This document shows positions 41,473 through 46,752 of a stretch of DNA of 64,000 nt, piece by piece. The DNA is taken from contig NZ_CP014571.1 in assembly GCF_017357425.1 (NCBI RefSeq), positions 1,054,001-1,118,000 of the forward strand, written 5' to 3'. The position numbers and the translations under genes are program-made. This DNA comes from Arthrobacter sp. D5-1 (lineage in GTDB: Bacteria; Actinomycetota; Actinomycetes; Actinomycetales; Micrococcaceae). The notes under the pieces were generated by a model. That model ran no database searches and was not told where the DNA came from. It was given only the letters and a program-made list of their open reading frames with translations. Within the stretch, counting starts at the first letter, position 1; every line of letters starts with the position of its first letter.

Positions 41473-41940
41473 TCACGGGCAGTTCAGTGTTCCTGTCAAG
41501 GGTGCGCCCGCCCACGCGTTGGTGGAGTTGGGCACCTTGTAGTAACCGCGGATCTGGTAGGTCCAGGTGCCTGAGAGGTTGCTAGTGCTTTGGACCCCTG
41601 AGCTGTAGGCCTTTCCTGAGGCCTTGCTGAGGTCGCCCGTGAACCGTACGACGCCGTCGGGGTCTATGACCTTAAGCTCGTGGTAGTTCGCGTAGGCGAC
41701 GGCCGCGAAACTGCTGACGCTGATTTTGGCTTGGCCAAACCAGAGGAATGAATCGCAGGACTTCGACACACTTACCGTGCTGGCTGCCGGCGCGGGGATC
41801 TTTGCCGCACTGACAGCCATCGCACCTGGCGCGGTGTCGCTGAACTGGGCGTGCGCAGGTGAAATGTAGACGCCCATCAGCAGTAACATGACCGCCAGGA
41901 TGGTGGCCGGTACTTGCCGGATGATGCCTTTGCCATGCAT
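41473..41940 (-). CDS. Small secreted protein with a SipW-type signal sequence
   Basis: A 155-residue protein with a clear signal peptide: a short basic start, hydrophobic core TILAVMLLLMGVYI, then SPAHAQFSDTAPG. Cleavage after AHA is predicted. FSDT at the mature start recalls TasA/CalY-type precursors processed by SipW. The rest looks like an all-beta domain with two cysteines (62 and 154) that could form a disulfide. No family was recognised. It is the last gene of the TasA-SipW-Hpt cluster, 91 bp after the Hpt-like gene, and may be a minor fibre or surface protein. Confidence 0.7.
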   Translation of the reverse strand: MHGKGIIRQVPATILAVMLLLMGVYISPAHAQFSDTAPGAMAVSAAKIPAPAASTVSVSKSCDSFLWFGQAKISVSSFAAVAYANYHELKVIDPDGVVRFTGDLSKASGKAYSSGVQSTSNLSGTWTYQIRGYYKVPNSTNAWAGAPLTGTLNCP

Positions 41941-42031
41941 GTGCGTGATGCCGTCCCGGTAGTGCGGATGATGTGTTTCCAGTGTGCCGAACGGGCCTCA
42001 GGAAACACCTCGGTGAACACTCAAGGTCCGC

Positions 42032-42439
42032 TCAAGACCGAAAAAAACCCCGGTGCCGGCTCAGCGATGTATGCGCGGCCCTGATGAGGTCGGACCGTGA
42101 AGCGAGACAGCGGTCTGCCGTCTGCCTCAGCGCCGGCAGCGCATGGGCGGCGTCGTCGAAGTGGTTTTCCCGGATCATTGATTCGATGGCCCGGCATTGG
42201 TGCTCCGTTTCCCTGGCTCCCACCATGGAAGAGCTGATCTTGAGGCTAAGAACAGCGGTGGTGGTCTCCGTTGCGTCATGCTCGTCCACAGCGTGGACTA
42301 TGCGTTCGACGCGCTGCGGAAGCATCGCGAGGTATTTGGCGAGGAAACGCAGTGCCGGTTCAGGGCTTCCCAGTTCCTCGGCGAGTGATTGGAGCCTGCC
42401 CAGGTCCAGTTCACCGCCTGGATTACCCGATGGCTTCAT
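42032..42439 (-). CDS. Hpt-like domain protein lacking the phospho-acceptor histidine
   Basis: A 135-residue helical protein matching histidine phosphotransfer (Hpt) domains. The core motif, normally A-H-x-L-K-G, reads VLSLKISSSMVGA at residues 63-75, with Leu64 where the histidine should be and Ile68 for the glycine; Lys67, Gly74 and Ala75 are kept. The C-terminal part (CRAIESMIRENHFDDA) also follows the Hpt pattern. Without the histidine it cannot relay phosphate in the usual way and may be a binding partner or pseudo-Hpt regulator. Its start overlaps the sipW stop by 17 bases, showing tight coupling to the secretion genes. Confidence 0.75.
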   Translation of the reverse strand: MKPSGNPGGELDLGRLQSLAEELGSPEPALRFLAKYLAMLPQRVERIVHAVDEHDATETTTAVLSLKISSSMVGARETEHQCRAIESMIRENHFDDAAHALPALRQTADRCLASRSDLIRAAHTSLSRHRGFFRS

Positions 42440-43151
42440 CGCGGCCTCCGGCCGTTTCCCCGGGTGTGGTCTTGGCGGGCTCTTTGGTCCAGATGGAGGC
42501 GAGCATTCCGATGACCAGTACGGCGGGTGCGCCGTACATCAGGATGTTCATGACGATGGGTTCGCGAAGGGCGCGGATGGCGTTGCCTACGTAGGGGATG
42601 GTGGTGACCTGCTTGTCCACGGTTTGCCCCTGCAGGGTGGCTATCCAGGGGTCGATACCGTTGTTGGCGTCGCCTTTGGTCTGGACTGCCACGCCGCCGT
42701 CGGCGGTGGTGCTGATCTCCGTGATCCGGTGGGTTTCCACCCGCTGGTCTTCGACCGGGATGTGGTAGGTGATGATGTCGCCGACCTTGACGTCGGTGAT
42801 GGGGGTGGGGACGGTGACGACGACGTCGCCCGGGTTGATCAGCGGGGCCATGGATCCTGTGAGCATGGTGGAGGTCTGGTAACCCAGGACGCGCGGGCCG
42901 ATCGCGAGGAACAGGAACACCAACGCAGCGAGGACCAGCATGCCCACGCCCATACCCCTCACCACTTTGCCGGCTATCCGGCGGAGGGAGCCGGTTGTGC
43001 CGGCAAAGGAGGTGGCCGCTGCGGGCTGCTTCACAGCGGCGGTCTTAGGAACGGAAGGAACGACGACGGCGGCTGGCTGGGGTCCGCTCCCTGCTGCGGC
43101 CGAACGCCGGCCGCGAACTGCGGGGGTGGTGATGGTGCTCAGTGCGCTCAT
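42423..43151 (-). CDS. sipW: SipW-type signal peptidase I
   Basis: A 242-residue membrane peptidase of the ER/SipW type, which cleaves TasA-like precursors. A long Ala/Pro-rich cytoplasmic start precedes one membrane span (GMLVLAALVFLFLAIG); the catalytic Ser100 lies in LTGSMAPLINPGDVV and the partner is His141 in VETHRITEI, the His replacing the usual Lys. A second span (MYGAPAVLVIGMLASIW) lies near the C-terminus. ATG at 43151 with AAAGGAA upstream. It lies 176 bp downstream of the TasA-like gene on the same strand, as in Bacillus tasA-sipW loci, though gene order is reversed. Confidence 0.9.
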   Translation of the reverse strand: MSALSTITTPAVRGRRSAAAGSGPQPAAVVVPSVPKTAAVKQPAAATSFAGTTGSLRRIAGKVVRGMGVGMLVLAALVFLFLAIGPRVLGYQTSTMLTGSMAPLINPGDVVVTVPTPITDVKVGDIITYHIPVEDQRVETHRITEISTTADGGVAVQTKGDANNGIDPWIATLQGQTVDKQVTTIPYVGNAIRALREPIVMNILMYGAPAVLVIGMLASIWTKEPAKTTPGETAGGRDEAIG

Positions 43152-43327
43152 GCCTGGCGTTCCTTTCGTGGTGTTCGACGTGCTTTCAGTCTGTCCTTCC
43201 CCGCTCAAGAGAGTGTGCGGGCGGGCCTCAAGACTTGATCAGGAAATGGCCAGGAACCGGCCGGAAGGGCATGCCGGCCGGCCCCTGGGGTCTATCGGGC
43301 TGCCTGTTGGGGGTCAGCGGGTGGGTG

Positions 43328-43936
43328 TTATTTGGTGGTTTCGGTGCGCTGGGTGCCGGTGAAGGAGAAGGCGATGGTGGAGGTGGCGCCTTGGAAGTCG
43401 TTGTTCGCGGTGGTGGGGAACGCGGTGGTGATTTTGAGGTTGTCGGTCTTGGCGGACGTCAGTGCGGTCAGGTTGGCCAGGGCCTTGTTGGCGGTGATGA
43501 CCGGGGCGGAGGCCAGGACGGTGCTCTTGGTTCCGGTGCAGGTGTAGGGGGCTGCGGTGCCGGTCCAGGCCACGGAGCAGTTTTCGATGGTCAGCTGCAG
43601 ACCGTTGGTCACGTCGGTGGTGAGCAGGGATCCGGTGGCCCCGGCGGAGGTGGTGAGGGTGACGTTGTTCAGGTCCGAGTTGCCGGTGTTGGCCAGGGTG
43701 ACGAGCTTTTCGACCTTGTCTCCGGGCAGCAGTCCTGCGATGGGGACGTTGAGGGTGTTGGCCGGGCCGGGGGCGCCCAGGGCGATGGTGACCGTACCTG
43801 CGGTGACAGCCTGTGACGCGGAGGTCGATGAGGTGAACGCACCGTAGGTTCCCATGCCGGCGACGGCGGCTGCGGTGCCGACCAGTGCGACGGAGGCGAG
43901 GATTTTGCCGGAGGTGGTCTTGAGGCTGATGGCCAT
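43328..43936 (-). CDS. TasA/CalY-like secreted fibre protein
   Basis: A 202-residue exported protein. The start MAISLKTTSGKILASVALVG leads into a hydrophobic stretch and GTYGAFTSSTSA, the SipW-dependent signal sequence form of TasA/camelysin proteins. The mature part has the family's beta-jelly-roll pattern: VTIALGAPGPANTL, then LLPGDKVEKLVTLANTGNSDL, and the TENCSVAW-like region with two cysteines (CSVAW and YTCTG). ATG at 43936 with AAAGGA about ten bases upstream; a longer frame begins at 43963. In Bacillus such proteins form biofilm fibres; here the role is inferred from family and its neighbour sipW. Confidence 0.85.
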   Translation of the reverse strand: MAISLKTTSGKILASVALVGTAAAVAGMGTYGAFTSSTSASQAVTAGTVTIALGAPGPANTLNVPIAGLLPGDKVEKLVTLANTGNSDLNNVTLTTSAGATGSLLTTDVTNGLQLTIENCSVAWTGTAAPYTCTGTKSTVLASAPVITANKALANLTALTSAKTDNLKITTAFPTTANNDFQGATSTIAFSFTGTQRTETTK

Positions 43937-44170
43937 CTGAGTATGGTCCTTTCGGGAGGCCACCGCGGGTCCGGCCGGCCGTTTCTTCCAGCCTCTCTGG
44001 CTGACAAGAACTACTGTGCCGGGGCTGGATCAAGAACTAATCCTGCAAACCCGCAACAGTTCCTCAGGAAAACCTCAAGACTCACCACAGCCCAAAGCCA
44101 GGACCCGGAGCATCCTCCCCGACCACATGGAAGAGTTCTTGTCAGAGTGACGATAACTCTGGTACGGTAT

Positions 44171-44191
44171 TTATTATTAGGTTGATAATAA
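44171..44191 (+). promoter_or_regulatory. Putative NrtR operator of the pnuC operon
   Basis: TTATTAT and ATAATAA (44171-44177, 44185-44191) form a perfect 7-bp dyad with a 7-bp centre just before pnuC. It is strikingly AT-rich for this genome. The operon encodes its own Nudix-related regulator, the probable binder. Confidence 0.5.
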
Positions 44192-44205
44192 AGAACGGAA
44201 GAACG

Positions 44206-44874
44206 ATGATGATGGCACTGCTTGACTGGATGAATTCCGCAGCAATCCCCAACCTCTTCGGCAGTCCTGTGAGCTGGATCGAAGTCATCGGCTTCGTCAC
44301 CGGTGCTGCCTGTGTTTATGGCGTGGCCCGGCAGAAGCTTTGGAACTGGCCAGTCGGCATCCTGAACAATCTTGCGTTTATCGTTCTGTTTCTCGGAGCC
44401 GGCCTTTATGGCGAAACCGTTCTGCAAGTGATCTTCGCGGCTGTTGCCGTTTATGGCTGGTACAACTGGGTGCGCGGAAACGCCGATACCGAGAACAAGA
44501 ATGACCTGCGGATCCGCGATGCCGCCGGCAAGGAGCTCCTCCTTGGGGTGGGTGCCACGGTGGCCGGTACTGCAGCTGTGGCGCTGGTGCTTACCCACGG
44601 AACCGATTCCCAGGTTCCTTGGCCGGACGCTTTCGTGCTGACCGCCTCACTCGTAGCAACATACGGGCAAGCCAAGAAGATCTTCCAACACTGGTATGTA
44701 TGGATTCTCATCGATGTGGTCTCCATCCCGCTCTACTTCAGCCGCGGTCTGGCACTGACAGCGATCCTCTATCTCGGATTCCTGACCCTCTGCATCTACG
44801 GACTGATCGACTGGAAACGTGCCCGCAGCACTGAAACACCGGTTATCCCCGAAGCTCTCAAGACAGGAGCATGA
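44206..44874 (+). CDS. pnuC: Nicotinamide riboside transporter PnuC
   Basis: A 222-residue membrane protein with about seven spans that imports nicotinamide riboside. The family signatures ARQKLWNWPVGILNN, VYGWYNW and the QHWYVWILIDVVSIPLYF stretch are present. Three ATG codons in a row (44206, 44209, 44212) follow GGAAG; the first or second is most likely. The stop is one base before the nadR start, so transporter and kinase/adenylyltransferase form one operon that traps the imported riboside as NMN and NAD. Confidence 0.94.
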   Translation: MMMALLDWMNSAAIPNLFGSPVSWIEVIGFVTGAACVYGVARQKLWNWPVGILNNLAFIVLFLGAGLYGETVLQVIFAAVAVYGWYNWVRGNADTENKNDLRIRDAAGKELLLGVGATVAGTAAVALVLTHGTDSQVPWPDAFVLTASLVATYGQAKKIFQHWYVWILIDVVSIPLYFSRGLALTAILYLGFLTLCIYGLIDWKRARSTETPVIPEALKTGA

Positions 44875-44875
44875 C

Positions 44876-45985
44876 ATGTACAAGCAGGCCCTGGTCATCG
44901 GTAAGTTCTACCCGCCGCACGTAGGCCACGCCCACCTGATCACCACTGCCGCGGCGCAGGCCGAAAAGGTCGCTGTCCTGGTACTGGGCACCCGCTTTGA
45001 GTCCATCAGCGTTGAAGACCGTGCCACGTGGCTTGCCGAAGAGTTTGATGGCGTCGGCGGCGTGGAGGTCATCGGTATGCGCAACGACTGCCCTGAGGAT
45101 TACTACTCGGACGAAATCTGGAAGGCCCAGACCGAGCTGATGCGTCTGGCGCTGAAGTCCCACGGCGTAACCTCCATTGATGCCGTGTTCAGCTCGGAAG
45201 AATACGGCATCCAATTGGCCGGGGCCTTTGACGCTGAACACGTCCTGGTGGACCTGGCCCGGACCACCTACCCGATCAGTGGCACTCTATGCCGTGATGA
45301 CCTTGGGGCGGCCTGGTCCTGCATCATCACACCCGCCCGCCAGGAGATGGCAACGCGCATCATTGTGGTTGGCGCCGAGTCCACGGGCACCACCACACTG
45401 GCCAAGGCGCTGACCGAGCATTACCGGCCGCGCTTCCCCCGGCTCACGGAAGTCCCAGAATTTGGCCGCGAATACACCTACACGAAGTTCGACGAACTGC
45501 GCGCCCGGACCGCGGACGCGGAACTTCAGAACATGGTGTGGACAGCGCAGGACTTCGGCCTGATTGGCGCGCGACAGACCGATATGGAAAATGCGGCAGC
45601 TGACTCCTGTCCCTTGGTGATTGCAGACACCGACGCACTGGCGACCACGCTCTGGGAGCGGTTCTACCTGGGGGAAGGAAGTTTCGGTTCGTACCACGCT
45701 GCCGACGTTCTGCCTCGGCGTGATGTGTACCTGATCACCGATCACGAGGGTGTGGAGTTCGAAGACGATGGGTGGCGTGAAGGCGAACACCGGCGTGCAG
45801 AAATGACTGAGTGGTTTAAAGAGACCCTGACTGAGGAAGGGCACTCGTGGATATTGGTCACGGGCGACCACGAACGGCGCATGAAAACCGCCGTCGAGAT
45901 TATTGACCTGATCCTTGCCCAACGGAGCAGCCTTACTTCTCCGCCCTGGGCGACCAGGACCGTTCTGGAAGGAGTAGGGGCATGA
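44876..45985 (+). CDS. nadR: NadR-like NMN adenylyltransferase / nicotinamide riboside kinase
   Basis: A 369-residue bifunctional protein. The N-terminal nucleotidyltransferase domain has GKFYPPHVGHAHLI (His15, His18), and SSEEYG near residue 110. The C-terminal kinase domain begins about residue 160 with RIIVVGAESTGTTTLAKAL. There the P-loop has Thr172 where the usual lysine is expected, so kinase activity is worth checking. The N-terminal DNA-binding domain of enterobacterial NadR is absent. The stop overlaps the nrtR start (ATGA). Together with pnuC it forms a complete nicotinamide riboside salvage operon. Confidence 0.9.
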   Translation: MYKQALVIGKFYPPHVGHAHLITTAAAQAEKVAVLVLGTRFESISVEDRATWLAEEFDGVGGVEVIGMRNDCPEDYYSDEIWKAQTELMRLALKSHGVTSIDAVFSSEEYGIQLAGAFDAEHVLVDLARTTYPISGTLCRDDLGAAWSCIITPARQEMATRIIVVGAESTGTTTLAKALTEHYRPRFPRLTEVPEFGREYTYTKFDELRARTADAELQNMVWTAQDFGLIGARQTDMENAAADSCPLVIADTDALATTLWERFYLGEGSFGSYHAADVLPRRDVYLITDHEGVEFEDDGWREGEHRRAEMTEWFKETLTEEGHSWILVTGDHERRMKTAVEIIDLILAQRSSLTSPPWATRTVLEGVGA

Positions 45986-46752
45986 CACCCGAAACGGATT
46001 CCGCCGGGAAATTTCTGGAAAGCTACAACCCCCGGGACTATCCCTCCGTAGCCCTGACGGTGGACCTGGTGGTCTTTGCCGTCGCCCGAGGGGTGCTGAA
46101 AGTCGCTTTGGTCCGGCGGGGAGAGCACCCTTTCAAGGATGTGCTTGCCCTGCCAGGAGGCTTTGTCGGCGCAGAGGAATCAGCCGGAAAAGCAGCAGAG
46201 CGTGAGCTCGCTGAAGAGACAGGTCTGGACCTCGGAAGACTGCCGGTCCATATCGAGCAGTTGGCTACCTACACGAGTCCGGATCGGGATCCCCGGATGC
46301 GCGTTGTCTCGGTGGCCCATCTGGCGCTCTTGGCTTCCAGCGGGACCTCGCTGCCAATGATCGCCGCCGGGTCCGATGCTGCCTCTGCTGGCTGGTATGC
46401 CGTCCATGACATTCTCAGAAGCGACGGGCTGGCCTTTGATCACGCCGTTATCCTGGGCGACGGCTTGGCGCGGCTGGCAGGAAAAATGGAATACACCACC
46501 GTCGCTGCCCGACTTCTGCCGGAGGAGTTCACGCTGACTCAGCTTCGCACCGTCTATGACGCCGTGTGGGAAACAACGCTGGCCGCTGGTAACTTCACCC
46601 GCAAGATGATGCCTCAGTTGAATGACACCGGCCGGAAGACCCGCGGTTCAACCGGCGGTGCCCCGGCCGCGCTGTTCACCGCCACGGACCGGCACATCCA
46701 TCCGCCGCTCAAACGCTTCCCCACGGCTCCCGTCCAACCACGCCGATCGTGA
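45982..46752 (+). CDS. nrtR: Nudix-related transcriptional regulator NrtR
   Basis: A 256-residue regulator with an N-terminal Nudix domain (residues ~20-150) and a C-terminal winged helix (MEYTTVAARLLPEEFTLTQL, about residue 170 on), the NrtR layout. NrtR repressors sense ADP-ribose or NAD derivatives and control NAD salvage, which matches pnuC and nadR upstream. The Nudix box GFVGAEESAGKAAERELAEE with TGL after it keeps every catalytic residue, unlike many NrtR proteins, so it may also hydrolyse its ligand. The ATG overlaps the nadR stop by four bases. Confidence 0.88.
   Translation: MTPETDSAGKFLESYNPRDYPSVALTVDLVVFAVARGVLKVALVRRGEHPFKDVLALPGGFVGAEESAGKAAERELAEETGLDLGRLPVHIEQLATYTSPDRDPRMRVVSVAHLALLASSGTSLPMIAAGSDAASAGWYAVHDILRSDGLAFDHAVILGDGLARLAGKMEYTTVAARLLPEEFTLTQLRTVYDAVWETTLAAGNFTRKMMPQLNDTGRKTRGSTGGAPAALFTATDRHIHPPLKRFPTAPVQPRRS

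Follow-up and report, generated by a model that had tools for sequence, protein, structure and literature searches.

The Bacillus signal peptidase SipW, a SipW-type peptidase for TasA like the enzyme examined here, is reported to have a second role in surface biofilm that is independent of its peptidase activity (PMC4238804, PMC5817204, citing Terra et al. 2012); the excerpts of these two articles name neither an Hpt partner nor an Hpt fusion. In plants, AHP6 is a pseudo-HPt that lacks the acceptor histidine and inhibits its two-component pathway (PMC3572949, excerpt), and in Caulobacter the small helical protein HmrB, which has no HxxKG motif, controls surface attachment in the Hmr pathway (PMC11481889, excerpt). 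The open-access literature on Hpt domains lacking the conserved histidine concerned plants, judged by title, plus Caulobacter and Pseudomonas, judged from excerpts, and for the term "pseudo-Hpt" all the titles listed were on plants. For an Hpt domain in Arthrobacter nothing was retrieved from this literature, the entries for histidine phosphotransfer in Micrococcaceae, for a signal peptidase with an Hpt domain and for SipW in Arthrobacter were unrelated by title, and no title described an actinobacterial TasA/SipW fibre system. We found no open-access description of the protein family reported below or of its link to SipW, although one may exist elsewhere. A bacterial pseudo-Hpt family that is multi-copy, carries its own motif, is paired with a regulator and is fused to SipW would offer a testable answer to the question of how a matrix-secretion enzyme also regulates matrix genes.

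A four-gene locus for a putative fibre

We analyzed a 64,000-nucleotide stretch of the Arthrobacter sp. D5-1 genome, hereafter the window, whose numbering is used unless another stretch is named. The initial annotation had described a TasA/CalY-like protein, a SipW-type peptidase, an Hpt-like protein and a small exported protein encoded in a row on one strand, and this arrangement was recovered, with all four open reading frames in that order on the minus strand. Family scans above curated cut-offs likewise upheld the first three identities. The TasA/CalY-like gene (43328..43936) encodes a putative fibre protein of 202 aa, presumed to be a SipW client, which has a SipW-type signal peptide and matches PF12389 (41.9 bits, cut-off 22.5) and TIGR04088 (20.7 bits, cut-off 19); against the Bacillus TasA equivalog NF046066 it scored 20.9 bits, below the cut-off of 450. 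The sipW gene (42423..43151), whose start is best placed at 43151 on an ATG preceded by AAAGGAA, encodes a SipW-type signal peptidase I of 242 aa (TIGR02228, 73.1 bits, cut-off 51.85). It carries the Ser/His/Asp motifs TGSM, ETHR and KGDA (Ser98), and its two hydrophobic segments outline a membrane helix, the peptidase domain, a second membrane helix and a short tail; its score against the Bacillus SipW equivalog NF046067 was 62.4 bits, below the cut-off of 190. The Hpt-like gene (42032..42439) encodes 135 aa that match PF01627 at 32.2 bits (cut-off 24.6), and the closest database Hpt protein, labelled P. nicotinovorans, is 95% identical to it, which suggests that the host is a Paenarthrobacter. 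With the end of sipW at 42423 and the start codon (ATG) of hpt at 42439, the two genes overlap by 17 bases (42423..42439), as had been annotated. The fourth gene (41473..41940) encodes a small exported protein of 155 aa that has an N-terminal hydrophobic segment and matches nothing in Pfam or NCBIfam above cut-off. Its relatives lie in tasA/sipW loci and adjoin SipW there, and it may itself be a second SipW client. Candidate promoters and terminators in the region were about as numerous as expected from shuffled sequence.

Loss of the phosphoacceptor histidine

The predicted structure of the Hpt-like protein (AF2, pLDDT 89.4) adopts the four-helix Hpt fold, its best solved structural matches being Hpt domains; we attribute further matches, to receptors and designed bundles, to the likeness that helix bundles commonly share. 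Profile and fold thus mark the protein as Hpt-like, and the phosphoacceptor histidine is absent. In true Hpt domains (PF01627; 3myf and Pseudomonas HptB 7c1i) the acceptor histidine is in place, whereas that of 3myf pairs with Leu64 of the window protein, the first residue of LSLK within AVLSLKISSSMVGA (codon 42248..42250, minus strand). The corresponding site is AVHKLKGSAGNIGA, AAHKLRGAAANIGA and AAHKLAGASANIGA in three true Hpt domains, which come from long frames of the same bacterial family and serve as an internal control.

A profile whose seeds were all His-less found 118 relatives in 67 of 149 Micrococcaceae genomes. Their acceptor column contained Leu in 99 members, Ile and Ala in four each, Val in three, Arg and Gln in two each, and His, Gly, Met and a gap once each, the single histidine belonging to L144. 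The site is occupied by a strongly kept motif, LSL[KR]xSSxMxGA: of the 118 sequences, 112 have Ser at +1, 114 have Met at +8 and 117 have Gly at +10. Because this family profile had been built from His-less seeds, we also ran an independent PF01627 search of the same genomes. It returned 63 matches over cut-off, 57 of them at places of the family and six elsewhere. Five of these six lie in frames of 1057–1184 aa, with the histidine present in the three inspected (L088–L090), and in the sixth (G030, L091) no HxxKG motif was found. The two paralogues in the window genome fell below the PF01627 cut-off, at 18.0 and 18.7 bits.

Because the Hpt fold is kept, the histidine is lost and the site is not drifting (Ser, Met and Gly being retained), the Hpt-like protein is a member of a conserved pseudo-Hpt family. 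Compared with PF01627 Hpt domains at large, the family has its own motif (LSLKxSSxMVGA) and occurs either as a small protein on its own or as a domain joined to SipW or to a glycosyltransferase. The phosphorelay-type function proposed in the initial annotation is impossible by the canonical route, since the phosphoacceptor histidine is Leu64, and no alignment column holds a histidine in more than 10 of the 118 members; with both the acceptor and any other conserved histidine missing, a phosphorelay function was rejected. As 57 of the 63 Pfam Hpt matches lie at pseudo-Hpt places, the label "phosphorelay" misleads for most PF01627 matches in Micrococcaceae. AHP6, in its excerpted account, resembles the window protein in being an Hpt protein without the acceptor histidine and differs in acting in plant cytokinin signalling with no secretion-enzyme link, so that the likeness is drawn at the level of the Hpt fold. 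HmrB, compared by its description (PMC11481889, excerpt), differs in being a predicted dimerising hairpin in which two other histidines are needed.

Partners at the gene and protein level

Among the 149 Micrococcaceae genomes, 22 SipW matches scored at least 190 bits, and in 17 an Hpt gene either followed immediately or shared the reading frame; four had no adjacent hpt (G062, G122, G115 and G018) and one sat at a contig edge (G078:C70). SipW and Hpt form one open frame in three genomes of one genus (L063, L065 and L143). Both domains also occurred together in 39 of 126 database proteins examined, which comprise the best 120 of 942 matches to a fused metagenome protein plus six earlier proteins. 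The acceptor site of these 39 fusions reads AVLSLK in 38 and ALLSLN in one. In a SipW tree, 11 fused sequences fell into two distinct groups, both of which also had unfused relatives, and some unfused frames fell inside one of the fused groups; a single ancient fusion with later splits may also fit this tree. An artefactual origin of the fusions is disfavoured, because the fused proteins come from many sources and the 11 tree sequences are not one clade. The model of one fusion (mean pLDDT 77.7, pTM 0.44) comprises a membrane helix, the peptidase domain, a second membrane helix, a linker and the Hpt bundle. The usual SipW topology would leave the fused Hpt domain in the cytoplasm. Five further loci keep tasA and hpt with sipW lost or fragmentary (L004, L013, L015, L017 and L072).

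The proposal that the Hpt-like gene is a conserved actinobacterial partner of the fibre-secretion pair is therefore sustained by the 17 adjacent or fused cases and by the fusions themselves. Co-occurrence in relatives, on which the initial annotation had staked this proposal, was borne out in those 17 of 22 and failed in the four without an adjacent hpt, and the loci that keep tasA and hpt without an intact sipW depart from it in a different way. A plasmid has a similar arrangement: in pYA7-1b, which is conjugative and comes from Arthrobacter sp. YA7-1, genes for a signal peptidase, CalY, a hypothetical protein and a His-less Hpt that reads AVLSLK follow one another (L193, 3962–6417).

Beyond SipW, neighbours were taken from genomic stretches on which all 118 pseudo-Hpt genes were mapped; labels reflect similarity to a few seeds, and those seeds and some other neighbours were scanned with Pfam or NCBIfam. 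The gene immediately upstream (n = 117) was SipW in 18 cases, TadB/C-like in 14 and a TIGR04089-like SipW client (divergent) in 12, and several upstream neighbours, antiporters and MMPL transporters among them, fell outside the surface genes. In five stretches (L080, L077, L078, L083 and L086), the His-less Hpt gene is the last gene of a Tad/Flp pilus operon, convergent with a regulator. At five other loci (L138, L147, L167, L168 and L181), a His-less Hpt domain forms the C-terminus of a protein of 613–630 aa. Scans of two of them identified family-2 glycosyltransferases, with Pfam detecting the Hpt part in one, below cut-off; the remaining three share that N-terminal part, and in all five the Hpt part is detected by the family profile. 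At four of these loci (L138, L147, L167 and L168), the convergent regulator is a short protein of 134–147 aa.

The commonest next gene downstream of a pseudo-Hpt was a convergent, tail-to-tail response regulator (73/118 genes, 55/67 genomes), at gaps of −45 to 172 nt. Such a neighbour occurred in 14 of 1249 other genes of the same stretches, a control that rules out chance linkage; the whole window genome has 14 matches to the DNA-binding domain of OmpR. The regulator aspartate is intact in all 73 linked regulators, and 67 of them carry an OmpR-type DNA-binding domain; none was seen in the remaining six, which are short (134–147 aa), so some pairs have an output other than transcription. Distances among Hpt proteins correlate with those among regulators across the 73 pairs (r = 0.739), and swapping regulators among same-genome pairs (12 genomes, 1000 trials) gave r of at most 0.667. 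The pairs are inherited as units, and linked inheritance alone can explain the distance correlation. A regulator of its own, as the initial annotation had envisaged for this matrix system, is thus found beside 73 of 118 relatives but not beside the window copy, which is among the 45 members without a convergent regulator as next gene, together with its tasA-linked paralogue.

The window genome encodes three pseudo-Hpt genes. The second adjoins a second tasA, whose protein is identical to the TasA/CalY-like protein of the window and whose sipW persists only as fragments; the third adjoins a kinase and a regulator, with no fibre genes (L005). No regulator lies next door at either fibre locus of this genome, so any contact there would be in trans.

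A proposed docking role and its alternatives

Hpt domains bind receiver domains. Because the pseudo-Hpt keeps the fold and a conserved face, has lost the phosphate carrier and is in most relatives encoded beside a receiver-containing regulator, its most likely role is that of a non-phosphorylatable docking module, which would hold a response regulator at surface-structure machinery; to this reading we assign about even likelihood. The pseudo-Hpt would be a cytoplasmic Hpt-fold protein that is unable to take phosphate at the usual site; it would bind the receiver domain of its paired regulator as Hpt domains do and pass no phosphate. SipW would hold it at the membrane, either as a fusion or with the pseudo-Hpt as partner of the SipW cytoplasmic tail, and fusion and gene order would place other members at a Tad machine or a polysaccharide synthase. 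Tethered in this way, it could sequester or present the regulator, and fibre production would then follow how much export machinery there is or what state it is in. For the window species this implies a regulator acting in trans, and one candidate is that adjoining the third pseudo-Hpt (C1, at about 1,294 kb; L005:4459–5202). The second role reported for Bacillus SipW and the plant protein AHP6 may serve as analogies for such docking. More tentatively, the Micrococcaceae family could represent membrane-tethered anti-response-regulators at SipW fibres, Tad pili and GT2 polysaccharide, through which a signal peptidase or secretion machine would report its own state to transcription by way of an adaptor and without phosphate; we regard this wider reading as possible and somewhat doubtful.

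The intimate ties to machines, namely the two clades of SipW fusions and the GT2 fusions, would equally suit an assembly or stability factor acting on SipW, a Tad protein or a GT2 synthase and never touching the regulator, which would be linked only as the controller of neighbouring genes. The 45 members without a convergent regulator, the window copy included, also speak for such a factor. However, the regulator pairs as well with members that have no adjacent surface gene (e.g. L005 and L070), Hpt folds are ones that bind receivers, and conservation lies on the face that was once the active site, so we consider an assembly factor unlikely, if worth keeping in mind. That the pseudo-Hpt inhibits or scaffolds a histidine kinase, by binding the kinase as such or the domain that binds ATP, would fit the presence of a kinase within 4.5 kb of 76 of the 118 members, often just beyond the regulator; yet the gene directly next to the pseudo-Hpt is the regulator in 73 cases versus a kinase in four, and a kinase target appears improbable.

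The two remaining explanations concern the altered site itself, and we regard both as highly improbable. Phosphate might still be transferred through another histidine, seven of which occur in the window protein, and HmrB has been proposed as an atypical Hpt without the usual motif (PMC11481889, excerpt); against this stands the lack of any alignment column in which His recurs beyond the 10-member level given above. The gene might instead be a decaying former Hpt kept by chance, given that its acceptor histidine is gone and that sipW has decayed at one fibre locus of the window genome. Decay is disfavoured because the acceptor site carries a nearly invariant alternative motif and because the gene, multi-copy and repeatedly fused, survives where sipW has been lost.

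A stretch comprising tasA and its upstream DNA is present twice in the genome (window 43296–44093 and L004 6468–7264), 99.6% identical over 798 bases. Although the flanking sipW and hpt differ, the sequences suggest a recent duplication or gene conversion. At the second locus a remnant of sipW (L004 6088–6186) separates tasA from hpt, and a same-genus genome still has a full-length sipW there (L069). Upstream of the window tasA is a perfect 12-base inverted repeat (44001–44012 and 44134–44145) with arms 121 bases apart, which may be due to chance. Next to the fibre operon, on the opposite strand, PnuC-like, NadR-like and NUDIX-like open reading frames, named by eye from their translations, lie in a row (44182–46752).
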